From positions 124,001 to 188,000 of the forward strand of contig NZ_JAAGPD010000001.1 of NCBI RefSeq assembly GCF_017104565.1: a stretch of 64,000 nt of DNA, in the 5' to 3' direction. The translations under genes were made by a program, and so were the position numbers. Shown here one piece after another: positions 47,269-61,050 of this stretch. A model generated the notes under the pieces. That model had not been told where the DNA came from, made no database searches, and worked only from the letters and a program-made list of their open reading frames with translations. Source of the stretch: Paraburkholderia sp. Tr-20389. Its GTDB lineage: Bacteria > Pseudomonadota > Gammaproteobacteria > Burkholderiales > Burkholderiaceae. Position 1 is the stretch's first letter. The number at the start of each line of letters is the position of its first letter.

Positions 47269-47367
47269 ATCGTACAAGTGCGACGCGGCCAAATCAAACA
47301 AAATCAGCATTTTTCTGTGGATTTGAGGGTTTACGCGTAGCCGTAAAAGCGTTAAATGTTGTACGAT
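47269..47367. promoter_or_regulatory. Inverted TTGTACGAT pair between kdgD and garD
   Basis: ATCGTACAA (47269-47277) and its exact reverse complement TTGTACGAT (47359-47367) lie 89-90 bp apart in the divergent gap. Each half is an imperfect palindrome about GTAC. The right copy falls just after a plausible garD -10 box, so a bound regulator could repress; a loop between sites is possible. No dedicated regulator gene is adjacent. Confidence 0.5.
47330..47357 (+). promoter_or_regulatory. Possible sigma-70 promoter of garD
   Basis: TTTACG (47330-47335), 16 bases, TTAAAT (47352-47357). Both boxes match the sigma-70 consensus at 4 of 6. The predicted start near 47364 lies inside the TTGTACGAT site. 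Confidence 0.35.
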
Positions 47368-47422
47368 GACGCCTAAGTTGTTTGACGAAATTGCAGGCTT
47401 TAAGCCGATCGAGTTGAAGGCA

Positions 47423-49015
47423 ATGAAACAATCTCCGCTTTACATTCGCGTACACCCCGAAGACAACGTCGCGATCGTCGTCAACGACGGCGGTCTGGAC
47501 ACGGGCGCCGTGTTCCCCGACGGCCTGACTTTGTGCGAGCGCGTGCCGCAAGGGCACAAGGTCGCGCTGCAGGATCTGGCCGAAGGCGATGCTGTCGTGC
47601 GCTACAACGTGGTCATCGGGTATGCGCTGAAGGCGCTGCCGAAGGGCAGCTGGGTGAACGAGCACGTGATCCGCATGCCGACGCCGCCGGCGCTCGACGA
47701 CCTGCCCATCGCGACGATCAAGGCGCCCGACATGGCGCCGCTCGACGGCTATACGTTCGAGGGTTATCGCAATGCGGACGGCTCGGTCGGCACGCGCAAC
47801 ATCCTCGCGATCACGACCACCGTGCAGTGCGTAGCCGACGTGGTTCAGCACGCGGTGACGCGCATCAAGGCCGAGTTGTTGCCGAAGTATCCGAATGTCG
47901 ACGACGTCGTGAGCCTCGGACACACGTACGGATGCGGCGTCGCGATCGACGCGCCCGATGCGATGGTGCCCATTCGCACAGTGCGCAACATCAGCCTGAA
48001 TCCGAACTTCGGCGGCGAGGTGATGATGGTGAGCCTCGGCTGCGAGAAGCTGCAACCCGAGCGCCTGATGCCGCCGGGCACGATCCCGATCGCCACGGCG
48101 ACGAATACGGAAGACGTCGCGGATATCGGCGATCTCTCCGCGAAGGCGGGCAACGGCGAGGTCGTGACCTTGCAGGACGATTCGCACGTCGGCTTTCAGG
48201 CGATGATCGAATCGATCATGAAGATGGCGGAAGGGCATCTGAAGCGGCTCGATGCGCGGCGTCGCGAGACCTGTCCCGCATCCGATCTCGTGATCGGCGT
48301 TCAATGCGGAGGCAGCGACGCCTTCTCCGGACTCACGGCGAATCCTGCCGTCGGCTTCGCAACGGACCTGCTGGTGCGCGCGGGCGCAACCGTGATGTTT
48401 TCGGAAACGACGGAAGTGCGCGACGGCGTCGGCCAGCTCACGGCGCGCGCGGCCAATGCCGATGTCGCGGCGGCCATCATCCGCGAAATGGAGTGGTACG
48501 ACAGTTACCTCAAGCGCGGCGGCGCGGACCGCAGCGCCAACACGACGCCCGGCAACAAGAAAGGCGGCTTGTCGAACATCGTCGAAAAGGCGATGGGCTC
48601 GATCATCAAGTCGGGCAATTCGCCGATCTCCGGCGTGCTCTCGCCGGGCGAGAAAGCTAAGCAAAAGGGCTTGATTTACGCGGCAACGCCTGCCAGCGAT
48701 TTCATCTGCGGCACGCTGCAGGTGGCGGCGGGGATCAATCTGCACGTGTTCACGACGGGCCGCGGCACGCCGTATAGCCTCGCGGAAGTGCCCGTCATCA
48801 AGCTCGCGACGCGCACGGACCTCGCGCGCCGCTGGTTCGACCTGATCGACGTGAACGCGGGCACGATCGCAACCGGCGAAGCAACGATCGAGGATGTGGG
48901 CTGGGAGCTGTTCCGCCTGATGCTCGAAGTCGCGAGCGGACGCAAAAAGACCTGCGCCGAAGCGCTCAAACTGCACAACGCGCTCGTGCTCTTCAATCCG
49001 GCGCCCGTGACCTGA
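47423..49015 (+). CDS. garD: Galactarate dehydratase
   Basis: A 530-aa UxaA/GarD-family dehydratase that converts galactarate (mucate) to 5-keto-4-deoxyglucarate. An N-terminal SAF domain (about 1-80: [19 protein letters not shown]) is followed by the dehydratase body with [45 protein letters not shown] (substrate and metal region) and the late [18 protein letters not shown]. The start at 47423 (MKQSPLYIR) gives a length close to E. coli GarD (523 aa); an earlier ATG at 47366 sits inside the operator and is less likely. Product goes to KdgD. Name chosen over altronate dehydratase because of the SAF domain and length. Confidence 0.95.
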
Positions 49016-49078
49016 GCGGATGTGTTTCGACGCAGGCAATCCGAAGAATGCAGTGAAACTTCAACATCGACGACAACA

Positions 49079-50191
49079 ATGACAAGCAAAGACAAGTTCG
49101 GGAAACGCGCTCTTCGGATCGTGACGGGTGCCGTATTCGGGGTGATGGCATCGGTGGCGGCTCATGCATCGACTTATGTGTATGTGTCGAACGCGGACAG
49201 CAAGGATATTTCCGTGCTCGCACTCGATCAGACCAACGGCAAGCTGACGTCGGTCGAAACGGTGCCCGTCGACGGTGCGGTGATGCCGATGGCGATGTCG
49301 CCGGACCATCGTCGTCTGTATGCGGCGCTGCGCTCCACGCCGTATCGCGTGGTGAGCTTCGCGATCAATCCGCTCGATGGCCGTCTGATCGAACTGGGCA
49401 GGGCGCCGCTCGCCGACAGCATGGCCTATGTGTCGACGGATGCGACGGGGCGCTATCTGTTTTCCGCGTCGTATGGCGGGAACCTGCTCGCGGTCAACGC
49501 GATCGGCGCGGATGGCGTTGCGAAGGACGTGCAGCAGACCATCAAGACGGGACCGATGGCCCATGCGATCCGTACCTCCGGCGACAACCGTTACGCCTTT
49601 GCATCGGTGCTCGGCTCGGATGCCTGGCTGCGCCTGAAGTTCGATGCCTCGACGGGACAACTGACGGAAGACAGCGCGCCCGCGTACAAGCTGCCCGAAA
49701 AGTCGGGGCCGCGTCATTTCGTGTTTTCGCGCGATCAACGGTTCGTGTATCTGATCGATGAACTCGACGGCAAGCTGCACGTGCTGTCGTTCAATCGCGC
49801 GACGGATACCGTCACGCCGATCCAGACGGTGTCGATTCTGCCGCCGGCGTTTTCGGGCGACAAACCGTGGGGTGCTGATGTGCATCTGACGCCGGACGGG
49901 CGCTTCCTGTACGCATCGGAACGCACGTCGAGCACGTTGGCGTCGTACAAGGTCGACCCGGTTACGGGCAAGCTGAAACGGCTCGGCACGTATCCGACGG
50001 AAAAGCAGCCGCGCGGTTTCAATATCGATCCGACGGGGCAATATCTGTTCGCCGTCGGTCAGTTGTCTCCCACGATGAGCGTGTACCGCATCGACGCGAA
50101 GACCGGCGACCTTGGCGAGATCGGCAAGTACCCGGTAGGCAAGGGCGCCAACTGGGTCGAAGTGGTGGGCTTCGACGGATCGAATCAGTAA
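49079..50191 (+). CDS. Exported seven-bladed beta-propeller lactonase (COG2706 type)
   Basis: A 370-aa protein with a signal peptide (IVTGAVFGVMASVAAHA, cleavage near HAST) and a 6-phosphogluconolactonase-like propeller: TYVYVSNADSKDISVLALDQ, SPDHRRLYAALRS, DATGRYLFSASYGG, KSGPRHFVFSRDQRFVYLID (in part) and PRGFNIDPTGQYLFAVGQ repeats. It begins 63 bp after garD, so it probably hydrolyses aldaro-lactones (galactaro- or glucaro-lactone) in the periplasm before uptake. COG2706 lactonases with this role (UxuL type) are known to me, but the exported form here is a difference worth noting. Exact substrate unproven. Confidence 0.88.
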   Translation: MTSKDKFGKRALRIVTGAVFGVMASVAAHASTYVYVSNADSKDISVLALDQTNGKLTSVETVPVDGAVMPMAMSPDHRRLYAALRSTPYRVVSFAINPLDGRLIELGRAPLADSMAYVSTDATGRYLFSASYGGNLLAVNAIGADGVAKDVQQTIKTGPMAHAIRTSGDNRYAFASVLGSDAWLRLKFDASTGQLTEDSAPAYKLPEKSGPRHFVFSRDQRFVYLIDELDGKLHVLSFNRATDTVTPIQTVSILPPAFSGDKPWGADVHLTPDGRFLYASERTSSTLASYKVDPVTGKLKRLGTYPTEKQPRGFNIDPTGQYLFAVGQLSPTMSVYRIDAKTGDLGEIGKYPVGKGANWVEVVGFDGSNQ

Positions 50192-50204
50192 TTCGAGGCT
50201 CGTT

Positions 50205-50234
50205 GCTATTGCGCGAGGTGCCTCGCGCAATAGC
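50205..50234. terminator. Long perfect hairpin between convergent genes
   Basis: GCTATTGCGCGAGG (50205-50218) and CCTCGCGCAATAGC (50221-50234) are exact inverted copies with a 2-bp centre. It lies 14 bp after the lactonase stop and 36 bp from the HxlR stop on the other strand. No T run is present; a bidirectional terminator or REP-like element is possible. Confidence 0.6.
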
Positions 50235-50269
50235 GTCTGATTGCAGACCCAGCAGCCGTTTGCACTATC

Positions 50270-50689
50270 TCAGACGGCTTGTTCAACAGCGTCCGCACGG
50301 CGTCGGCGGGTTCCCGCTGTCTTCGGCGCCGTCTTCTCCTTCTCCTCCCCGACCGCCTTCTCCCGGCGCGTCTGCCAGGACTCACCCCATTCACGCAAGC
50401 CAATCAGTACCGGCTCGAGCGTTTTGCCGAGCGGCGTCAACTCGTATTCGACCTTTGGCGGCACTTGCGGATACACGTGGCGCGTCACGATGCCATCCGC
50501 TTCCAGTTCACGCAGTTGCAGCGTCAACATGCGTTGTGTCGTGTTCGGCATCAGCCGCGTCAGTTCCATGAAGCGCTTTTTCTCGTTCAGCAGATGGAAC
50601 AGGATCACCGGCTTCCACAAGCCGCCGATGACGGACAGTGTGACCTCGACAGCGCAGCCGCTCTTGCTGTCCAGACGTTTGGGGCGCAT
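50270..50689 (-). CDS. HxlR-family transcriptional regulator
   Basis: A 139-aa winged-helix regulator: CAVEVTLSVIGGLWKPVILF (HxlR signature, with the Cys near the N terminus that redox-sensing members use), RFMELTRLMPNTTQRMLTLQ (recognition), LRELEADGIVTRHVYPQVPP and KVEYELTPLGKTLEPVL. The C-terminal tail is Lys/Arg/Glu-rich. It is divergent from an alcohol-dehydrogenase-like gene, a common pair in which the regulator responds to reactive aldehydes, quinones or electrophiles. The specific signal is not evident. Confidence 0.92.
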   Translation of the reverse strand: MRPKRLDSKSGCAVEVTLSVIGGLWKPVILFHLLNEKKRFMELTRLMPNTTQRMLTLQLRELEADGIVTRHVYPQVPPKVEYELTPLGKTLEPVLIGLREWGESWQTRREKAVGEEKEKTAPKTAGTRRRRADAVEQAV

Positions 50690-50714
50690 GGCTTTTATAC
50701 CTACATAATTGATA

Positions 50715-50734
50715 GTACCGGCTTTAATTGTACC
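50715..50734. promoter_or_regulatory. Candidate HxlR operator, GTACC direct repeat
   Basis: GTACC occurs at 50715-50719 and 50730-50734, 15 bp apart, each preceded by AATTG-like sequence, 26-45 bp before the HxlR start codon in the gap shared with the dehydrogenase. Proximity and repetition suggest an operator; there is no direct proof. Confidence 0.35.
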
Positions 50735-50888
50735 TTCTTGCGGCTATCGAGGTACGACGGGACAATCACGCTGTGGTCGCGGGCCTTCCGCGACCTCGCG
50801 CGCCGTCACATGGGCGCGATTGCCATTTCGATGCCGATGCGAACTCACCGTTCGTGCGTGCATCAATCGACCATCAGGAGTTGCTTCG

Positions 50889-51896
50889 ATGAAAGCCATC
50901 ACATTGCGCCGCCCCGGCGGACTGGACCATCTCGAACGCGTGGAACTCGCCGATCCGGGCGCCCCGGCGCCGGGAGAAATCCGCGTACGCATTCACGCGA
51001 GTTCGCTCAACTTCCATGACCTGGGCGTCGTCACCGGCCGCCTGCCCGCGGATGACAAGCGCATTCCGATGTCGGATGGCGCAGGCGTCGTCGAAGCGGT
51101 CGGCGATGGTGTCACCGAATTCGCCGTCGGCGATTCCGTCGTTTCCACGTTCTTTCCGAACTGGCTCGACGGCGGTCCGATGCTCGACGATTTTTCGACC
51201 ACACCGGGCGATGGCGTCGATGGTTACGCTCGCGAAATCGTCGTGCGTCCGGCGCAATGGTTCACGCACGCGCCGCGCGGCTACAGCCATGCGGAAGCGG
51301 CGACCTTGACCACGGCGGGCCTGACGGCGTGGCGCGCGCTGGTCGTCGACTATTCGCTGAAGGCGGGCGACAGCGTGCTCGTGCAGGGCACGGGCGGCGT
51401 GTCGATCTTCGCGCTGCAGTTCGCGAAGCAGATGGGCGCGACAGTGATCGCGACTTCGTCATCCGACGAAAAGCTGGAAAAAGCCCGCGCGCTCGGCGCC
51501 GATCATCTGATCAACTACAAGCGCGATACCGACTGGGCGTCGAAAGTACTCGAATTCACGAATGGGCGCGGCGTCGACAACGTCGTGGAAGTGGGCGGAC
51601 CGGACACGCTGGGTCAATCGATACGCGCGTGCCGGATCGGCGGCCATATCGCGCTGATCGGCGTGTTGACGGGCATCGCCGGGCAGGTGCCGACGGTCGA
51701 TCTGATGCGTCGCCAGCAGAAGCTTCAGGGGTTGATCGTCGGCAGCCGCAGGCACCAGAGCGACATGATCCGCGCGATCGACGTAAACGGAATGAAGCCC
51801 GTGATCGACAGCACGTATCCGCTCGACGAGATTGCCGATGCCTTCCGCCATCAGGCAGCCGGCAAGCATTTCGGCAAGGTTTGTCTGTCGATTTAA
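50889..51896 (+). CDS. MDR-family alcohol dehydrogenase / quinone-oxidoreductase-like
   Basis: A 335-aa NAD(P)-dependent oxidoreductase of the medium-chain reductase superfamily. GroES-like domain: ITLRRPGGLDHLERVEL, HASSLNFHDLGVVTG and MSDGAGVVEAVGDGV. Rossmann domain: LVQGTGGVSIFALQFAKQMG (GTGGVS cofactor loop), GADHLINYKRD. No Cys/His zinc site is seen. AGGAG precedes the ATG at eight bases. It is divergent from the HxlR regulator across 199 bp and is probably induced by the electrophile that regulator senses. Substrate unknown. Confidence 0.9.
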   Translation: MKAITLRRPGGLDHLERVELADPGAPAPGEIRVRIHASSLNFHDLGVVTGRLPADDKRIPMSDGAGVVEAVGDGVTEFAVGDSVVSTFFPNWLDGGPMLDDFSTTPGDGVDGYAREIVVRPAQWFTHAPRGYSHAEAATLTTAGLTAWRALVVDYSLKAGDSVLVQGTGGVSIFALQFAKQMGATVIATSSSDEKLEKARALGADHLINYKRDTDWASKVLEFTNGRGVDNVVEVGGPDTLGQSIRACRIGGHIALIGVLTGIAGQVPTVDLMRRQQKLQGLIVGSRRHQSDMIRAIDVNGMKPVIDSTYPLDEIADAFRHQAAGKHFGKVCLSI

Positions 51897-52291: not shown

Positions 52292-53317
52292 ATGCGGCCG
52301 GTCATGTCGTCAACTCCTGAGCCACCTCTCCAGAGCCGTATCGATGCGGGCGTGCATGATCTGCGCGTCACGCGATACGGCTTCCTGCTGCTCGACAACT
52401 TTTCGCTGATCGCGCTAGGCACCGCGGTGGATCCGCTGCGTATCGCGAACATGCTGGTCGAACGCAAGGTTTACGACTATCAGCTGATCGGCGCCAGCAA
52501 CGAGTTCGTGTGTTCGAGCGACGGCATCCGCGTGATGCCCGACACGTCGATGGCTGACGCAGGGAAATTCGACGCCGTGTTCGTCGTCGGTCCCAATCCG
52601 ATTCCACGCAAGGGCATCGGCGCGGTGCTCGACTGGCTGCGTTATCACGCGCGCAGCGGCACCGCGCTCGGCGGACTCGATACGGGCAGCTACTTTCTCG
52701 CGCGAGCGGGCCTTCTGAACGGCTATCGATGCACGATTCACTGGGAAGACCAGGACGTGCTGCTGGAGCAATTCCCCAAACTCACCGTCTCCAACCGCCT
52801 GTATGAGGTCGACCGCGACCGCTACACGTGCAGTGGAGGCGTTGCGCCGCTCGATCTGATGGTGCATCTGCTCGGCATGCCGCCCGGCAGCCATTCGCTG
52901 GCGGCGCGCGTGCTCGAACTGCTGGTCGCCGAGCGGCGCAGTCACGAGCAGCGTCAGGTCACGTCGCTGCGGCAGTACATCGGCGCCGAGCACGCGAAAC
53001 TGGACGAAGCGCTGCAGGTCATGGAAAGCAACGTCGAGGAAACGCTGTCGGTCGCGGAGATCGCGACGTTTCTCGACGTCTCGCAACGGCAGCTCGAACG
53101 ATGGTTCCAGGAGCGGCTCGGCAAGACGCCGGCGCAGGCGTACCTGGAAATCCGTCTGCTGCGCGCGCGGCAACTGCTCTACAGAACGGCCAAACCGCTC
53201 GAAGAGGTCTGCGCCCGCACCGGCTTCACATCGCTGACGCATTTCTCGACCCGCTACAAGGCGCAGTTTCATATCTCTCCGATAGCCGATCGCAGGCGCT
53301 ATCAGAAGGCGCTGTAA
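52292..53317 (+). CDS. GlxA-family (DJ-1/PfpI plus AraC) transcriptional regulator
   Basis: A 341-aa regulator with an amidotransferase-like, catalytically inactive DJ-1 sensor (about 20-195: YGFLLLDNFSLIALGTAVDP, FDAVFVVGPN, LDTGSYFLARAGLL, where Thr-Gly-Ser replaces the nucleophile Cys) and a C-terminal AraC domain (about 235-335: LSVAEIATFLDVSQRQLERW, RTGFTSLTHFSTRYKAQF). This is the GbdR/CdhR/SouR type that controls choline, carnitine and sarcosine genes. It precedes the creatinase gene by 162 bp and probably activates it via the TGTCG repeats. The start is uncertain: 52292 or 52304, neither with a ribosome site. Confidence 0.9.
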   Translation: MRPVMSSTPEPPLQSRIDAGVHDLRVTRYGFLLLDNFSLIALGTAVDPLRIANMLVERKVYDYQLIGASNEFVCSSDGIRVMPDTSMADAGKFDAVFVVGPNPIPRKGIGAVLDWLRYHARSGTALGGLDTGSYFLARAGLLNGYRCTIHWEDQDVLLEQFPKLTVSNRLYEVDRDRYTCSGGVAPLDLMVHLLGMPPGSHSLAARVLELLVAERRSHEQRQVTSLRQYIGAEHAKLDEALQVMESNVEETLSVAEIATFLDVSQRQLERWFQERLGKTPAQAYLEIRLLRARQLLYRTAKPLEEVCARTGFTSLTHFSTRYKAQFHISPIADRRRYQKAL

Positions 53318-53366: not shown

Positions 53367-53400
53367 ACCCTCGATGTCGAAAACGAAAACTCCAGTGTCG
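53367..53400. promoter_or_regulatory. Candidate activator site A upstream of creatinase
   Basis: Block ACCCTCGATGTCGAAAAC (53367-53384) contains TGTCG (53375-53379), which repeats at 53396-53400 with a 21-bp period (TGTCG-N16-TGTCG). The second copy lies 80 bp before the creatinase ATG. The same block, repeat and distance occur before the MHS transporter gene (58489-58522). Confidence 0.75.
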
Positions 53401-53479
53401 CATCGAGAAATATTCGAAAGCGGCAGAACCCTAACATGAGGCTCACTTCAACTGGATTTTTCACCGAGGAGTCGAGCAC

Positions 53480-54691
53480 ATGAAACTGGAGAACCTGATC
53501 CGCATCGAGAACGGCGAGAAAGTGAAGCACACCTTCTCCGACGCCGAATATGCAAGCCGTCAAGGCAAACTGCGTGAGCTGATGGCGCGCGACAACATCG
53601 ACGCCGTACTGTTCACGTCGTATCACAACATCAACTACTACGCGGATTTTCTCTACTGCTCGTTTGGCCGCAAGTACGGGCTCGTCGTGACCAGCAAGAA
53701 AGTCGTGTCGATCTCGGCGAACATCGACGGCGGCCAGCCGTGGCGGCGCACGGTCGGCGACTACAACGTGGTCTATACCGACTGGCAGCGCGACAACTTT
53801 TTCCGTGCGGTGCAGGGCGAGATCGAGAACAAGGGCCGCGTGGGCGTCGAATTCGACCAGATGCCCGTCGAAGTGCTGGCTAAACTGAAGGCAGCGCTGC
53901 CTGCCGTCGAATTCGTCGATATCAGCGCGCAGACCATGCGCATGCGGATGATCAAGTCGGCGGAAGAAATCGCCTTGATCAAACACGGCGCGAACGTGTG
54001 CGACGTGGGCGGCGCGGCGCTCGCAGCGGCCGTGCGTGAAGGCGTGCCCGAGCATGAAGTGGCGCTCGCTTCGACTCAGGCGATGGTGCGCGAAATCGCG
54101 CGGCGTTTTCCCGATTCGGAACTGATGGATACGTGGACGTGGTTCCAGTCGGGCATCAACACCGACGGCGCGCACAATCCCGTCACGACGCGCAAGGTGC
54201 AGAAGGGCGACATCCTGAGCCTGAACTGCTTTTCGATGATCGCCGGTTACTACACGGCGCTGGAACGCACGATGTTCTTCGATCATTGCCCGGACGAGTA
54301 TCTGCGCCTGTGGAAGATCAACGTCGAGGTGCATGAAGCAGGTCTCAAGCTGATCAAGCCGGGTGCGCGCTGCTGCGACATCGCGAACGAACTCAACAAG
54401 ATCTACGCCGAGTACGGCGTGCTGAAGTACCGCACGTTCGGCTACGGCCACTCGTTCGGCGTGCTGTCGCACTACTACGGCCGCGAAGCGGGTCTCGAAC
54501 TGCGCGAAGACATCGAGACGGTGCTGGAGCCGAACATGGTCGTGTCGATGGAACCGATGATCATGCTGCCGGAAGGTCAGCCGGGCGCAGGCGGCTATCG
54601 CGAGCACGACATTCTCGTGATCGGCGAGAAGGGCGCGACCAACATCACCGGCTTCCCGTACGGACCGGAGCGCAACATCATCGCGGCCTGA
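53480..54691 (+). CDS. Creatinase (creatine amidinohydrolase)
   Basis: A 403-aa cytosolic enzyme that hydrolyses creatine to sarcosine and urea. It has the pita-bread M24 fold but no metal centre. Length and numbering match Pseudomonas putida creatinase: SYHNINYYADFLYCSFGRKY, SANIDGGQPWRRTVG, YTDWQRDN, MRMRMIKSAEE, the catalytic His232 in NTDGAHNPVTTR, GYGHSFGVLSHYYGREAG (in part), VVSMEPMIMLPEGQPGAGGY and the FPYGPERNII end. AGGAG lies upstream of the ATG. It starts the run creatinase-glyA-creatininase-permease and follows a candidate activator site. Confidence 0.97.
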   Translation: MKLENLIRIENGEKVKHTFSDAEYASRQGKLRELMARDNIDAVLFTSYHNINYYADFLYCSFGRKYGLVVTSKKVVSISANIDGGQPWRRTVGDYNVVYTDWQRDNFFRAVQGEIENKGRVGVEFDQMPVEVLAKLKAALPAVEFVDISAQTMRMRMIKSAEEIALIKHGANVCDVGGAALAAAVREGVPEHEVALASTQAMVREIARRFPDSELMDTWTWFQSGINTDGAHNPVTTRKVQKGDILSLNCFSMIAGYYTALERTMFFDHCPDEYLRLWKINVEVHEAGLKLIKPGARCCDIANELNKIYAEYGVLKYRTFGYGHSFGVLSHYYGREAGLELREDIETVLEPNMVVSMEPMIMLPEGQPGAGGYREHDILVIGEKGATNITGFPYGPERNIIAA

Positions 54692-54757
54692 CGGCTGTTT
54701 GCGCGTAGCCCTGCGGCGCGAGCCGCAGGCGACCCACTGTGGCAGGAGGCGTTGTAC

Positions 54758-56017
54758 ATGTTTTCAAAAGAACAGACCATCGCGGGTTTCGATCCGGAAC
54801 TGTCGGACGCGATGCTGCGCGAGCGTCAACGACAGGAAGATCACATCGAGCTGATCGCGTCGGAAAACTATGCGAGCCCGCGCGTGCTGGAGGCGCAGGG
54901 TTCGGTGCTGACGAACAAGTATGCGGAAGGCTATCCCGGCAAGCGCTATTACGGCGGATGCGAGCATGTGGACGTGGTCGAAACGCTGGCTATCGAGCGA
55001 GCGAAGCGGCTGTTCGGCGCCGCGTATGCGAATGTTCAGCCGCACAGCGGCTCGCAGGCGAACGCGGCGGTCTATCTCGCGCTGCTCGCGCCCGGCGACA
55101 CCATTCTCGGCATGAGCCTCGCGCACGGCGGGCATCTGACGCACGGCGCGAAAGTGTCGTTCTCGGGCAAGGTCTTCAACGCGGTCCAGTACGGCGTCGA
55201 TGCGGCGACGGGACTGATCGACTATGACGACGTCGAGCGGCTGGCGCTGGAGCATCGCCCGAAGATGATCGTCGCCGGATTCTCGGCCTATTCGCGCGTG
55301 CTCGACTTCGCGCGCTTCCGCGAGATCGCCGATCGCATCGACGCGTATCTGTTCGTCGATATGGCGCACGTCGCGGGCCTGGTTGCCGCGGACCTGTATC
55401 CGAATCCCGTGCCGTTTGCGGACGTCGTGACGACGACCACGCACAAGACGCTGCGCGGTCCGCGCGGCGGCCTCATACTGGCGCGCGCGAATGAAGCGCT
55501 CGAAAAGAAGCTCAGTGCGATGGTATTCCCCGGCACACAAGGCGGACCGCTGATGCATGTGATCGCCGCAAAGGCGGTGGCGTTCAAGGAAGCGCTCGGC
55601 GCGGAGTTCGCCGGGTACCAGAAGCAGACGCTGAACAATGCGCGCGCAATGGTGGACGTGTTCATCGAGCGGGGCTACAAGGTGGTGTCCGGCGGCACGG
55701 ACGATCACCTCTTGCTGGTGGATCTCGTCGATAAAGGGATCACGGGCAAGGACGCGGACGCGGCGCTCGGCCGCGCGCACATCACGGTGAACAAGAATGC
55801 GGTGCCGAACGACCCGCAGTCGCCGTTCGTGACGAGCGGCATTCGCATCGGCACGCCGGCCATCACGACACGCGGATTCGTCGAGCACGATGCGAGGCTG
55901 ACGGCGTCGCTCGTGTGCGACGTGCTCGACGGTATCGGCGACGAGCGGACGGAAGCTCGCGTGCGCGAACAGGTTGCGCAACTGTGCGCACGGTTGCCCG
56001 TGTATCGGGGCCTGTGA
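54758..56017 (+). CDS. glyA: Serine hydroxymethyltransferase, catabolic copy
   Basis: A 419-aa PLP enzyme interconverting glycine and serine with tetrahydrofolate. Motifs: [68 protein letters not shown] and the PLP Lys230 in [14 protein letters not shown]. The ATG at 54758 has AGGAGG eight bases upstream; a TTG at 54752 is possible. Its position between creatinase and creatininase suggests a dedicated copy that uses glycine, and methylene-folate formed from sarcosine oxidation, to make serine. The chromosome would be expected to have a separate housekeeping glyA. Confidence 0.96.
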
Positions 56018-56068
56018 AGCGCGCGTGAACAACGGGACATGGATTGACGTAATCAGGAGGCAACAGCC

Positions 56069-56863
56069 ATGAAGCAAAGTGTGGTGATAGGAGAACTGGC
56101 GGCGCCCGAGTACGCGCGCCGCATCGGCGGCGGCTGGCCCGTGCTGATTCCGCTTGGTGCGCTGGAGCAGCACGGGCCGCACATGTCGATGAACCCCGAT
56201 GTGCTGCTGCCGACGGCGATCGGCGTCGCGGTCGCGCAGAACATCGACGCGCTGGTCGCGCCCGCGATTGCCTACGGATACAAGTCGCAGCAAAAGAGCG
56301 GCGGCGGCAATCATCTGTGCGGCACGACGAGTCTCGACGGCCATACGTTGTCGTCGACGATCAAGGACATCCTCAAGGAATTCGCGCGGCACGGCGCACG
56401 CAAGATCTGCCTGATCAACGGCCACTTCGAGAACTCGATGTTCGCGGTCGAAGGAATCGACCTTGCGCTGCGCGAGTTGAAGTGGGAAGGCATTCACGAC
56501 TTGCAGGTCGTGATGCTGTCGTACTGGGACTTCGTTACCGAGCAGACGATTGCGCGTATCTATCCCGACGGCTTCCCGGGTTGGGCCGTCGAGCACGGCG
56601 GCGTGCTCGAAACCTCGCTGATGCTGCATCTGCATCCGCATCTGGTGGACATGTCGCAGGTGCCCACGCATGCGGCCGCGACCTTCCCGCCCTACGACGT
56701 GTTTCCGCCGATTGCCGAGTGGACGCCCGCATCGGGATGTCTGTCTTCGGCTGCGAATGCGTCGGCGGAAAAGGGGAAATTGCTGTTCGACGTCTGCGTT
56801 GAAGGGATGTCGCAGGCATTGGGCGAAGCCTGGCAAGCGCGTGCGAAAGCATCGCGGGCCTGA
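56069..56863 (+). CDS. crnA: Creatininase (creatinine amidohydrolase)
   Basis: A 264-aa metal-dependent cyclic amidase that interconverts creatinine and creatine. Aligned to the P. putida enzyme with a shift of one, the metal ligands are present: Glu33 and His35 (GALEQHGPHM), Asp44 (MNPDVLLPT), and His119 and Glu121 (INGHFENSMF). Other blocks: YGYKSQQKSGGGNHLCGTTS, VVMLSYWDFV, VEHGGVLETSLML and ATFPPYDVFPP. AGGAGG precedes the ATG. It is 51 bp after glyA and 16 bp before the permease gene, so it belongs to the creatinase operon and feeds creatine to it. Confidence 0.96.
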   Translation: MKQSVVIGELAAPEYARRIGGGWPVLIPLGALEQHGPHMSMNPDVLLPTAIGVAVAQNIDALVAPAIAYGYKSQQKSGGGNHLCGTTSLDGHTLSSTIKDILKEFARHGARKICLINGHFENSMFAVEGIDLALRELKWEGIHDLQVVMLSYWDFVTEQTIARIYPDGFPGWAVEHGGVLETSLMLHLHPHLVDMSQVPTHAAATFPPYDVFPPIAEWTPASGCLSSAANASAEKGKLLFDVCVEGMSQALGEAWQARAKASRA

Positions 56864-56879
56864 CAACCGGGAGAGAGCG

Positions 56880-58355
56880 ATGAGCACGCGCGAGAGCAGT
56901 CACCCGACACATGAAGTAGTCGCCGACAAGGCATGGAGCATCGAGCAGCACGCGATCGACCCGATTCCCCGCGAAGACCGGCATGGCACGCCCGCCGAAC
57001 TCTTCAAGATGTGGATCGGCGCGAACACGAATTACGTGGTGGTGGTCACCGGCGCGCTGGCGCTTTCTCAAGGACTGTCGTTGTGGCAGGCCTTGCTCGC
57101 GATTCTGGTCGGCAATGCATTCGGATGCTTCGTGCTGGGACTGACGACCATCATGGGGCCGAAAACGGGCACGTCGGGGATCATGACGTCGAGAAGCTCT
57201 TTCGGGCAACTCGGTTCGTTCCTGCCGAAAGCCGTCAGTCTCGTTTCAGCGTTGAGCTGGTTCTCGATCAATTCCGTCGTCGCGACCCAGGCACTCGAAA
57301 CGCTGCTGAAAATGGGCGGTTTTCATAGCCATGGCGTGGTGTGGGTGTCGCTCGCGATCATTCTGGCTGCGGAGATCGTGCTCGCAATCTTCGGGCATGC
57401 GACCATCATCGCCGCGGAGAAATGGATCGCGCTGATACTCGCCGTACTGTTCGCGGGGCTTGCGGCATTCGTGTTGCCGCACACGAGTCTCGCGATTGCA
57501 TCGCAAGTCAATCACGGCGGCGGATCGTTCAGCACGTGGCTGATCGCAATGGGAATCGTGTTTTCGTACCCGATCGGCTGGGCCAACTTCGCCTCCGACT
57601 ACAGCCGTTATTTCCCCGCGGAAACGAGCTGGAAGAAGATCGTGCTGGCGGCAGGCGGCGGTCAGTTCGTCGCGCTGATGTTCTGCGAAGTGATCGGCGT
57701 GCTGTTTGCGACGGCGCTTGGCGGCTCGCTCGGCGAAGATCCCGTGAGCCAGTTGGGCCGCTTCCTGCCGACGTGGTTCATCGTGCCCTTGCTGTTCGCC
57801 ATCATCCTGGGCGGCATTGCAGCGAACGTGCCCAACGGCTATACAGCGGGTCTCGGTCTTCTCGCGCTGCGCATCCCGATCAATCGCGTGACGTCGCTTG
57901 CGATCATCGCATTGTTCACGTTGTCGTTTCGCGTGGTCACCGTGTTCTATGGCCAGTTCTTCGACATGTATCAGGTCTTTCTCAACTACATGGTCTTCTG
58001 GACTGCGCCCTGGGCCGCGATCGTCGTCGTCGACTACTTCATGCGCGGCGGCCACTATCGCCCCGACGAATGGATGAAGTGGGGCAGCGGCGCGTACTGG
58101 TACACGAACGGAATCTTCTGGCCGGGCATCATCGCGTGGATGCTGGGTATCGTTGCATCGATCGTGTTCTCGAACTCGCCGACCTACGTGAGCCCGCTGA
58201 TGCGCGACTATCTCGGCTGGGGTGATCTGAGTTTCGAGTTCTCTCTGCTGACGGGCGGTATCGCGTACTTCCTGCTTGCGCGTCGACATCCGCTCTTTCT
58301 GACGACATCGGCTGGCGATCGCCTGCGCGGCGATATTCACTCCACGTCGATCTGA
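56880..58355 (+). CDS. NCS1-family permease, probable creatinine importer
   Basis: A 491-aa, 12-helix inner-membrane transporter of the nucleobase:cation symporter-1 family (CodB-like): RHGTPAELFKMWIGANTNYV, GPKTGTSGIMTSRSSFGQLG, a first half with SWFSINSVVATQALE, YPIGWANFASDYSRYFPAET, and VVDYFMRGG near the end. GGGAGA precedes the ATG. It follows creatininase by 16 bp and ends with a strong terminator, so it is the last gene of the operon. NCS1 proteins carry cytosine, hydantoins, allantoin and similar ring compounds, which makes creatinine the natural cargo; this is inferred. Confidence 0.9.
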   Translation: MSTRESSHPTHEVVADKAWSIEQHAIDPIPREDRHGTPAELFKMWIGANTNYVVVVTGALALSQGLSLWQALLAILVGNAFGCFVLGLTTIMGPKTGTSGIMTSRSSFGQLGSFLPKAVSLVSALSWFSINSVVATQALETLLKMGGFHSHGVVWVSLAIILAAEIVLAIFGHATIIAAEKWIALILAVLFAGLAAFVLPHTSLAIASQVNHGGGSFSTWLIAMGIVFSYPIGWANFASDYSRYFPAETSWKKIVLAAGGGQFVALMFCEVIGVLFATALGGSLGEDPVSQLGRFLPTWFIVPLLFAIILGGIAANVPNGYTAGLGLLALRIPINRVTSLAIIALFTLSFRVVTVFYGQFFDMYQVFLNYMVFWTAPWAAIVVVDYFMRGGHYRPDEWMKWGSGAYWYTNGIFWPGIIAWMLGIVASIVFSNSPTYVSPLMRDYLGWGDLSFEFSLLTGGIAYFLLARRHPLFLTTSAGDRLRGDIHSTSI

Positions 58356-58374
58356 TTCGTTTATTCCGAGGTTG

Positions 58375-58428
58375 CCCGCTATGTCCGTCGGCGTCTTATG
58401 ACGCCAGCGGAGATAGCGGGCCTTTTTG
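58375..58428 (+). terminator. Strong terminator of the creatinine operon
   Basis: Outer stem GCCCGCTAT (58375-58383) / ATAGCGGGC (58414-58422) encloses an inner stem GGCGTC-TTAT-GACGCC (58391-58406), followed by CTTTTT. It lies 19 bp past the permease stop. Confidence 0.9.
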
Positions 58429-58488
58429 CGTTTACGCGCTCGTTTTCATTCGACTTTAGCGACACTCGAAGCGCTTTTTCTGGCGTAT

Positions 58489-58522
58489 ACCCTCGATGTC
58501 GGAAACAGTGAGCACGTTGTCG
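58489..58522. promoter_or_regulatory. Candidate activator site B upstream of the MHS transporter
   Basis: Block ACCCTCGATGTCGGAAAC (58489-58506), 17 of 18 bases identical to the block at 53367, with TGTCG at 58497-58501 and 58518-58522 (21-bp period again). The second copy is 81 bp before the MHS ATG. It lies beyond the operon terminator, so the transporter has its own co-regulated promoter. Confidence 0.75.
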
Positions 58523-58602
58523 AAAGCGGAAATATTCCGCGTTACTGGACTTCTACCATGCACTCAAGCCGGTTCGATCAACATGAGGTTTGGAGAGTGT
58601 CA

Positions 58603-59970
58603 ATGAATACGAGAAGAGCTTTACGTGGAGAGTCCCCCGCGAGTGGCATCGCGTCCACTGACGTCACGCGCGAGGGCGGTGCCGCAGTCCCGGCAGTCGA
58701 TCCCAAACTGCTCAGGCGCGCGGCCTGTGCGAGCTTCATCGGCAACTTCGTCGAATGGTTCGATTACGCGTCGTACGGTTACCTCGCGACGATCATCGCC
58801 GTCGTGTTCTTTCCGAAGACGGATGGCACCACCGGGTTACTGGCGGCCTATGGCGTGTTCGCGATTTCGTTCATCGTGCGGCCCATCGGCGGCATCGTGT
58901 GGGGGCATTTCGGCGACAAGATCGGCCGGCGTGCATCGCTCTCGTTGTCGATTCTGATCATGTCGGCGTCGACGTTCGTGATTGCGCTCTTGCCGACTTA
59001 CGCACAGGTCGGCGTGCTCGCGCCGGCGCTGCTTCTGCTGGTGCGCGTGATCCAGGGTTTTTCCGCTTCCGGCGAGTATGCAGGCGCGTCGGCGTTTCTC
59101 GCCGAATATGCGCCGTCGAACCGGCGCGGCTTCTATACGAGCATCGTGCCCGCCAGCACGGCGGCAGGCCTGCTGTTCGGTTCGATTCTGATTGCTGTGA
59201 TGCACGCGGTGCTGAGCAGCGAGCAACTGCATTCGTTCGGCTGGCGCCTGCCGTTTCTGCTCGCCGCACCGTTTGGTCTGATCGGCCGATACATCCGGGT
59301 GAAGCTCGAGGACACGCCGCGTTTCAAGGCAATCGAGCAACAGAGCCATGTCGCGCGTGCGCCTATTGCAGAACTGCTCGGCAGGCATCGCGTGAAGATG
59401 CTGATCGCGTTCGGCGCGACCTGCCTGAATGCCGTCGCGTTCTATCTGGTGCTGAGCTACATGCCGACCTATCTGTCGACGGAACTCGGCATGGATGAGA
59501 CCGCGTCGTTCATCGCCGCGACGATCTCGCTGACGGCATACATCGGCCTGATCTTCCTGATGGGCGCATTGTCGGACCGGCTTGGCCGCAAGTCGATGCT
59601 GATCGGCGCATCGATCCTGTTCGCGGTGTTGACGGTGCCGCTCTTCAAGGGCCTGGCGGGCGCGGGCTTCATGACGATCGTCGCGATACAGATTGCATTC
59701 GGTGCGTTGCTGACGATGAACGACGGCACACTGCCTTGCTTCTTGTCGGAGATCTTCCCGACGCGGGTGCGTTACAGCGGCTTTGCATTCTGCTTCAACG
59801 CGGCCAATGCGCTGTTCGGCGGCACGGCGCCGCTGGTGGCGACGTGGCTGATCGGCGCGACGGGCAGCAAGCTCGCACCCGCGTGGTATCTGGTGGGCGC
59901 GGCCGTCGTCGCGCTGGTTGCGATGAGCGCGAGCCGCGAAACCTCGCGTGCACCGTTGGCCGACGAGTAA
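58603..59970 (+). CDS. MFS transporter, metabolite:H+ symporter (MHS) family
   Basis: A 455-aa, 12-helix inner-membrane carrier of the ProP/KgtP/ShiA type: SFIGNFVEWFDYASYGYLAT (MHS signature), GGIVWGHFGDKIGRRASLSL (loop 2-3), VIQGFSASGEYAGASAFLAE, and the second-half loop GALSDRLGRKSML. MHS members carry betaine, proline, dicarboxylates and similar zwitterions. The ATG at 58603 has GGAGA six bases upstream; upstream in-frame codons overlap the operator and are excluded. Sharing site A/B with creatinase suggests it imports creatine, sarcosine or a related compound. Confidence 0.9.
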   Translation: MNTRRALRGESPASGIASTDVTREGGAAVPAVDPKLLRRAACASFIGNFVEWFDYASYGYLATIIAVVFFPKTDGTTGLLAAYGVFAISFIVRPIGGIVWGHFGDKIGRRASLSLSILIMSASTFVIALLPTYAQVGVLAPALLLLVRVIQGFSASGEYAGASAFLAEYAPSNRRGFYTSIVPASTAAGLLFGSILIAVMHAVLSSEQLHSFGWRLPFLLAAPFGLIGRYIRVKLEDTPRFKAIEQQSHVARAPIAELLGRHRVKMLIAFGATCLNAVAFYLVLSYMPTYLSTELGMDETASFIAATISLTAYIGLIFLMGALSDRLGRKSMLIGASILFAVLTVPLFKGLAGAGFMTIVAIQIAFGALLTMNDGTLPCFLSEIFPTRVRYSGFAFCFNAANALFGGTAPLVATWLIGATGSKLAPAWYLVGAAVVALVAMSASRETSRAPLADE

Positions 59971-59976
59971 CCCGCC

Positions 59977-61050
59977 ATGCGCATCGCAGACGATCCATTC
60001 GGATCGAGAGCACGCGGCGGCGCGGCAAAGAGCCGTGCCGCCGCGGCTGAGGCAACCCGGCCCGTGAAGTTTGGAATCGTCCTGTTGCCGAACTTCACGT
60101 TGACGGCGTTTTCCGGTTTCGTGGATCTCTTGCGCCTCGCGAGCGACGAGGGCGATTTCAGCAAACCGGTCCGCTGCGCATGGACGGTGGTCGGCGAGAC
60201 GCTGACGCCCGTGCGGGCGAGTTGCGGCATTCAGATCCAGCCCTGGCAAACCTTCGAAGATGCCGGCACGTTCGATTACCTCGTCGTGATCGGCGGCCTG
60301 CTTCATTCCGGACCCGGCGCCAGCGACGCGACGCTGCGCTTCATCCGCCGTGCCGCCGATACGTCGTCGACACTCGTGGGCATCTGCACCGGCGTGTTCG
60401 CGTTGTCGCGAGCAGGTGTGATGGACGGGCATCGCGTGTGCGTCAGCTGGTTTCACTACTGGGATTACATCGCGCGATTTCCGGGCGTGGACGAGACGCT
60501 GCTCGTCGCAGACCGGCTGTTCGTCATCGATCGCCGGCGAATTTCCTGTTCGGGCGGACGCGCGTCCATCGATGTGGCGGCGGCCATTCTGCAACGACAT
60601 CTCGATGCCGCAACGGTGCAGAAGGCACTGCGCATTCTGCTCGTGGAAGACGCGCAGCGGGCGAGTGCGCCACAGCCGCACCCGCCGGGGACGAAGCCCG
60701 TCACGCATCCTCGCGTCAAACGGGTGGTGCATCTGATGGAGCAGCACATCGGGCGGCCGTTGAGTCTGGATGAACTGGCCGGACGCGTCGATATGTCGGT
60801 GCGCCAGTTGCAGCGTCTCTTCAAGACGCAAACGGGCGAGTCGCCTCTCGCCTACGCGAGGCGCTTGCGGCTGAAGACGGCTGCGTGGCTGCTGACGGAC
60901 TCGGAGCGAACCGTGGCGGAGATCGCCGCGCTCTGCGGGTTCTCGGATGCCTCTCACATGGGGCGCGAGTTTCGCAAGGAGTTCGCGGTCGCGCCCAATG
61001 CCTATCGCGCCGATCGGGCTCGCGAGTCTGTCGCCGTCGAGCAGGTGTGA
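59977..61050 (+). CDS. Second GlxA-family (DJ-1/PfpI plus AraC) regulator
   Basis: A 357-aa regulator. DJ-1-like domain at about 30-200 (VKFGIVLLPNFTLTAFSGFV, YLVVIGGLLHSGPGAS, and GICTGVFALSRAGVMDG, in which Cys is retained) and AraC domain at about 245-345 (LSLDELAGRVDMSVRQLQRL, ALCGFSDASHMGREFRKEF). It begins 6 bp after the MHS transporter stop, so it is co-transcribed and under the same control. It may form a feed-forward loop with the regulator at 52292, or respond to a downstream metabolite such as sarcosine or glycine. No ribosome site was clear. Confidence 0.9.
   Translation: MRIADDPFGSRARGGAAKSRAAAAEATRPVKFGIVLLPNFTLTAFSGFVDLLRLASDEGDFSKPVRCAWTVVGETLTPVRASCGIQIQPWQTFEDAGTFDYLVVIGGLLHSGPGASDATLRFIRRAADTSSTLVGICTGVFALSRAGVMDGHRVCVSWFHYWDYIARFPGVDETLLVADRLFVIDRRRISCSGGRASIDVAAAILQRHLDAATVQKALRILLVEDAQRASAPQPHPPGTKPVTHPRVKRVVHLMEQHIGRPLSLDELAGRVDMSVRQLQRLFKTQTGESPLAYARRLRLKTAAWLLTDSERTVAEIAALCGFSDASHMGREFRKEFAVAPNAYRADRARESVAVEQV

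Follow-up and report, generated by a model that had tools for sequence, protein, structure and literature searches.

In a 64,000-nucleotide stretch of the Paraburkholderia sp. Tr-20389 genome (referred to here, at its full length, as the window), the creatinase gene creA and the gene for a carrier resembling the MHS family are each preceded by a copy of the same promoter block. On sequence comparison, this block is very probably the operator of a creatine-responsive activator of the GATase1-AraC class, R1, which is encoded at 52292 and would be the counterpart of CahR of Pseudomonas. What the comparison establishes is an operator that is conserved, that in the DNA scanned is nearly confined to creA, MHS and the creatininase gene crnA, and that matches published sites of this regulator class.

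A preliminary description of the window had reported an 18-bp block plus TGTCG-N16-TGTCG at 53367-53400 and 58489-58522, and both these coordinates and the identity of 17 of the 18 positions in the block ACCCTCGATGTCG[A/G]AAAC are confirmed; no third copy of ACCCTCGATGTCGRAAAC with TGTCG-N16-TGTCG was found in the 9.0-Mb genome (8,997,065 bases). As had also been stated, TGTCG-N16-TGTCG occurs nowhere else in the window than at 53375-53400 and 58497-58522. Its chance expectation there is 0.55, and since 10 of 100 shuffles contain at least two copies, the bare pattern is not significant and was rejected as evidence. The extended CCCTCGATGTCGNAAAC-N11-TGTCG has exactly two matches in the genome, with none for its reversed control. 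The second TGTCG is separated from the ATG by 79 bases at creatinase and 80 at MHS, which become the 80 and 81 bp given earlier if counted to the A of the ATG.

The repeated unit is larger than was described. A further conserved stretch, GAAATATTC, is present at 53407-53415 and 58529-58537, and a -10-like hexamer lies at an equal offset in both promoters; both elements had been overlooked. An ungapped alignment of the two promoters has three conserved stretches, ACCCTCGATGTCG-AAAC, TGTCG with GAAATATTC 6 bases on, and CTA-CATG, and the unit is therefore the whole promoter, with two 21-bp half-sites (TGTCG-N5/6-GAAA) and a -10 at a fixed distance. The -35 slot at a 17-bp spacer is 53409-53414; it reads AATATT, which is not a -35, and it falls under the proximal half-site, as would be expected if the activator is of class II. 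The promoter elements are as follows.

53367-53370, + strand: ACCC box on the 5' side of the creatinase operator, present at most of the creatinase and MHS promoters seen
53375-53395, + strand: distal 21-bp half-site of the creatinase operator
53396-53416, + strand: proximal 21-bp half-site (TGTCG...GAAATATTC) of the creatinase operator, over the -35 slot
53432-53437, + strand: -10-like TAACAT of the creatinase promoter, its TA invariant in 44 aligned promoters
58489-58492, + strand: ACCC box of the MHS promoter
58497-58517, + strand: distal half-site of the MHS operator
58518-58538, + strand: proximal half-site of the MHS operator
58554-58559, + strand: -10-like TACCAT of the MHS promoter

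The genes concerned all lie on the + strand, in the order R1, creatinase, serine hydroxymethyltransferase (SHMT), creatininase, NCS1 permease, MHS-like carrier and R2.

52292-53317, + strand: R1, a CahR/GbdR-like regulator with GATase1 (DJ-1/PfpI) and AraC helix-turn-helix (HTH) domains (Pfam DJ-1_PfpI, HTH_18), the probable operator binder
53480-54691, + strand: creA, creatinase (creatine amidinohydrolase; Pfam Creatinase_N, Peptidase_M24)
54752-56017, + strand: SHMT (NCBIfam PRK00011, 645 bits)
56069-56863, + strand: crnA, creatininase (TIGR04448, 365 bits, above the cut-off of 235)
56880-58355, + strand: NCS1-family permease, probable creatinine uptake (Pfam Transp_cyt_pur)
58603-59970, + strand: metabolite/H+ symporter of the MHS family (MFS), probably a CreT-like importer of creatine
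59977-61050, + strand: R2, a second GATase1-AraC regulator, 6 bases 3' of MHS

No NCBIfam model scored above its cut-off for the creA product, and its exact name is a probable one, given because of the adjacent creatininase; its closest named relatives are from Paraburkholderia, Caballeronia and Burkholderia species, and the habitat of the host bacterium is probably soil. SHMT, which starts with TTG at 54752 and has an in-frame ATG at 54758, probably belongs to the creA operon, and crnA follows it 51 bases 3' with no operator of its own. The carrier has its best family match to TIGR00883 at 385.8 bits, yet under the cut-off of 443.45, so that 'MHS' denotes a likeness and not a passed test. R2, which Pfam places in the same regulator class as R1, starts so close behind MHS that it is probably co-transcribed from the MHS promoter; operon membership is deduced from spacing for all of these gene sets.

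Conservation of the operator is clear at creatinase promoters. The compared loci (L-numbers) and genomes (G-numbers) are related, their counts are not independent, and the genome set and the named loci overlap in part. The creA upstream set comprised 59 distinct regions (at least 80% identity), with identical upstreams counted once; 47 of them were anchored on ACCC, allowing 65-85 bases, and the other 12 were excluded from the matrix. The site ends 75-79 bases before the creA start codon in all 47 anchored promoters, and the gap between half-sites is N16 in 45 and N17 in two (L015, L145). Both the 21-bp period of the two direct half-sites and their GTCG-like core are as in GATR-type operators. 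The distal half reads TGTCG in 30 of the 47, TGGCC in 10, CGACG in three, CGTCG in two, and AGTCG and TGTCT in one each. L133, among the 12 unanchored upstreams, has the same operator without ACCC, and the rest are from more distant genera. An equal-period repeat, taken as the best-scoring one within 130 bases before creA, is present 67-75 bases 5' of the gene at 11 of 12 Comamonadaceae-type loci; at L079 this scoring chose another frame, and a separate reading put the repeat 71 bases out. These orthologous promoters lend support to the earlier proposal that creatinase and MHS have in common a putative AraC-type operator with a 21-bp repeat.

Matrix and model searches place the operator almost solely before the pathway genes. 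A 70-bp matrix trained solely on the 47 creA promoters was run over 4,348,898 positions on both strands of 154 partly overlapping loci, and gave 98 matches above 5; 95 of them are upstream of creA or MHS, at most 420 bases from the start, and three lie before crnA. Leave-one-out scores of the training promoters run from 34 to 95, apart from two low values (-6.6 and 0.1). A sequence-only model built on 44 creA promoters (L015, L023 and L145 omitted) finds two sites in the Tr-20389 genome at E up to 1 (4.9e-15 and 1.2e-8). Across 31 genomes selected because they have the system, it gives 63 matches at E below 0.01, of which we assign 37 to creA, 21 to MHS and five to crnA; the creA matches are mostly members of the training set, those at MHS and crnA are outside it, and the creA assignment on contig C70 of G029 relies on R1 just 5' at the contig end. 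The next match, to part of the model (G061 C10, E 0.016), has no pathway gene nearby (L192), and the following match (E 0.026) is once more 5' of crnA (L187). For each genome the best 150 of 1113-2146 first-look candidates were scored, and weak sites may therefore be missed. Sarcosine oxidase genes had been suggested as a further place to look, together with creatinase and MHS, and here the outcome is divided: the operator is conserved at creatinase and MHS, and the 44-promoter model gave no match at the sarcosine oxidase locus of the same genome (L155) at the sensitivity of the best 150 candidates. Several relatives have serine dehydratase and sarcosine oxidase genes 3' of creA and SHMT on the same strand. 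A looser pattern search, with two mismatches, was set aside because it matched in 67 of 98 genus genomes, mostly in a chance-like manner (matches not individually checked); it led to more pairs about 5.1 kb apart.

The operator also accompanies MHS and crnA where these genes stand apart. The 400 bases before MHS and the 700 before crnA were scored with a 43-bp core matrix trained on creA, leaving out homologues below 74% identity, and the scores fall into two clear groups, at least 23 and at most -4. There are 62 distinct regions (41 MHS, 21 crnA), and the operator is present in 29. For 27 of these 29 the nearest same-strand upstream frame ends 169-1071 bases away, and for the other two none is seen in the available stretch; among the 33 regions without operator, 29 follow another gene within 27-112 bases. 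The gene calls behind these distances are rough (frames of at least 100 codons with high GC3). The operator is thus mostly present when MHS or crnA begins its own unit, and 58 of the 62 regions fit. Creatininase, which was missing from the preliminary description, is accordingly a third target in relatives. The positional lock described earlier holds for creatinase and fails for MHS, at which the operator is 68-233 bases from the start in relatives; the fixed element of the site is its spacing to the -10, not to the start codon. A control with 6000 random 400-bp windows (median -18.9, 90% point -8.1, top 1% at least 27.7 with the 43-bp matrix) was discarded as flawed because real sites stand at the centre of the loci; true and chance matches are not separated in it.

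Hinkel et al. 2022 reportedly described a CahR-creA system in Pseudomonas putida KT2440, with a GATase1-AraC regulator and a creatinase. In the loci compared, from Pseudomonas other than KT2440, the regulator neighbouring creA is 42-48% identical to R1, and creA is often followed by an MHS homologue; MHS is 3' of creA in many Pseudomonas and also in Acinetobacter, Piscinibacter and several Caballeronia loci. The arrangement differs in that the Pseudomonas regulator is usually 3' of creA on the opposite strand, whereas R1 is 5' on the same strand.

The shape of the site is that of related regulators. In PMC5806209, the CdhR footprint has GGTCGC half-sites with a 15-bp spacer, and CdhR sites are called very similar to those of GbdR, SouR and ArgR; for GbdR and SouR the likeness is by description. 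The ARG box of P. aeruginosa is given in PMC10963909 as TGTCGCN6GNAA, 16 bp, repeated after 5 bp. Both have direct half-sites, a 21-bp period and a GTCG core, like the window operator. PMC5806209 places CdhR in class I, with activation from a more distant upstream position, in contrast to the window operator, with its proximal half over the -35 slot. The metabolites of the CdhR, GbdR, SouR and ArgR systems also differ from those of the window. The regulator class and the 21-bp direct-repeat operator shape are thus known already. Among the top-ranked results from one open-licence literature collection we found no description of creatinase regulation in Burkholderiaceae, nor of this operator in Burkholderiaceae, its reach over three genes, its tracking of detached genes or the probable placement of R2 under R1.

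The regulator itself has the GATR architecture, with DJ-1_PfpI at residues 58-193 and HTH_18 at 257-336, and scores 324 bits with the NCBIfam GbdR model NF052371 (R2, 189 bits), both below the cut-off of 480. R1 was found in all 26 genomes searched, each picked for carrying MHS or creA, and in several families most loci have it next to creA, the neighbourhood expected of a CahR counterpart. Residue 269, within QRQL[E/Q]RWF of the HTH, presumably corresponds to a base-contacting glutamine of MarA. Among the anchored creA loci, all 10 whose distal half is TGGCC have Q here and all 34 others with R1 have E, no R1 being found in three; in the Comamonadaceae-type set, Q is paired with TGGC[A/G] in nine of nine readable cases. 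R2 carries Q and its paralogues carry E, with no TGTCG-N16-TGTCG near those of the same genome, and the residue alone therefore does not set specificity. We read Q at this position as a probable relaxation of specificity, not a switch, and the difference offers a direct specificity test for this class of regulator.

Several observations weigh against R1 and its operator as proposed. Four detached genes have no operator, at 224-438 bases from the preceding gene (L150, L124, L141, L186), and R1 is not seen in the available stretch around creA of L015, L023, L139 and L145. R2-like paralogues (about 70-74%) are present in all 26 genomes searched, so that absence cannot be used to exclude R2-type binding, and one looser TG[GT]C[CG] pair lies near each of the two R2 paralogues of the Tr-20389 genome (L154, L155). 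With regard to residue 269, Q-type loci L056 and L079 (by alignment) lack TGGC, an extra creA copy in the E-type G370 has TGGCT as its distal half, and two changes in all are required at this residue on a tree of 71 R1-like rows. MHS sites in Q269/TGGCC genomes mostly keep a TGTCG distal half (for example L025, L127-L129, L131, L132 and L140), and the covariation is therefore not strict. The 5-bp ARG-box spacer, according to PMC10963909, is clearly conserved in P. alloputida only at argG.

The preliminary description had left the regulator as either the gene at 52292 or that at 59977, and of these 52292 is the more likely. An alternative in which R2, alone or with R1, binds the operator could draw on its class, on its position directly behind MHS and on its homologues throughout the 26 genomes, and we regard it as unlikely. 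A close R2 (at least 82%) adjoins MHS in just 11 of the 26 genomes, within the window's clade only, and the operator is present at creA in many loci without R2 in the available stretch. Around the two R2 paralogues of the same genome, L154 and L155, neither TGTCG-N16-TGTCG in the surrounding 14 kb nor a site by the 44-promoter model was found, only the looser pair at each; the intergenic region beside an R2 paralogue, compared in two genomes, gave no convincing R2 site. The candidate favoured by these comparisons is R1 (52292), not R2 (59977), as the likely binder.

A reading in which a promoter duplication left the two promoters as relics, alike by descent alone and with no shared regulation, is very improbable: the similarity does span the ACCC box through the -10, but positions between the blocks have diverged where TGTCG, GAAA and the -10 stayed, and detached genes retain their sites, none being found when the gene follows another within 112 bases. 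Just as improbable is another factor, a global nitrogen control or an unrelated regulator, using the block with the neighbouring GATase1-AraC genes incidental, for which the unexplained ACCC box outside the repeat and the AmtR control of creatine genes in Corynebacterium glutamicum (PMC8864220) could be cited: many sites would be expected of a global nitrogen regulator, not the two found in this genome, and a 21-bp direct repeat is the site shape of the GATase1-AraC class.

The shared operator also bears on transport. Among 145 genus genomes, MHS is present in 23 (E up to 1e-140) and creA in 22 (E up to 1e-150), and all 22 are among the 23; in the remaining one, G029, the creA start is cut at a contig end. 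The NCS1 permease adjoins crnA in 14 of the 14 crnA-bearing loci listed, and outside the family crnA often has no close NCS1 homologue. A precedent is CreT of C. glutamicum ATCC 14067, which, according to PMC8864220, is an MFS transporter in an operon with a creatininase gene, has 50% similarity to the MFS gene beside creatinase in P. putida, and when deleted abolishes growth on creatine and not on creatinine. CreT is repressed by AmtR, unlike the activation proposed here, and its likeness to MHS is by description. From linkage, co-occurrence and the CreT precedent, the best assignment is therefore creatine for MHS and creatinine for NCS1. MHS is a probable creatine importer, tied to creatine uptake by both the common operator and the co-occurrence; of the creatine or sarcosine uptake assigned to it earlier, creatine is the better choice.

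We infer the following sequence of events, in which R1 would bind, creatine (or creatinine) would be the signal, each unit would be read as a single transcript and MHS would carry creatine. An R1 dimer would bind the two direct half-sites (TGTCG-N5/6-GAAA) on one face of the DNA, with their 21-bp period, and, with the proximal half-site covering the -35 slot (the promoter has a -10 and no recognisable -35), would activate in a class-II-like manner. The two operator copies would jointly switch on two units, creA-SHMT-crnA-NCS1 and MHS-R2. The former would bring creatinine in and convert it to creatine and on to sarcosine and urea, with a one-carbon unit passing to serine; the latter would provide creatine import and a second regulator.

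More tentatively, the operator and -10 may behave as a cassette that goes with genes located outside the creatinase operon, and the regulon would thereby be kept while the operon is broken up, and in the window's clade R2 may additionally have been placed under R1 as a two-step circuit, with creatine import and a sarcosine-type sensor co-induced; we consider this clearly less likely than not. The proposal supplies a sharp, testable predicted operator for creatine catabolism in Burkholderiaceae and a natural series of genomes in which regulation is kept though the pathway genes stand apart.

Some further features were noted at these loci. The ACCC box is 8 bases 5' of the first TGTCG, outside the repeat; the crnA sites in E-type genomes (L122, L187, L189) lack it, as does creA in L133, and its conservation at creA is to be read with the set itself having been anchored on ACCC. 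G370 has three creA copies (L186 2866-16733; L122 9770-10978) with an operator at each, one having the TGGCT distal half. In Pseudomonas a 21-bp CGGAT repeat was read by eye only. Also by eye, the stretch between SHMT and MHS in L141 and L124 resembles the remnant of a formyltetrahydrofolate-deformylase-like gene, and such a gene is 5' of MHS in L125, L126 and L023, which suggests that a deletion moved MHS.

The R2 paralogue (71%) at L155 6371-13841 (contig C31) stands beside serine-dehydratase-like and soxB/soxA-like sarcosine oxidase genes, named from protein sequences without a family search, and this suggests a SouR-like role. The paralogue (72%) at L154 3044-13909 (contig C24) is accompanied by dihydrodipicolinate-synthase-like and aldehyde-dehydrogenase-like genes and an SHMT homologue, the functions other than SHMT being taken from protein starts only. 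In the window, 5' of R1, an apparently unrelated cluster of sugar-acid type at 47366-51896 contains altronate/galactarate dehydratase, lactonase and zinc alcohol dehydrogenase genes.

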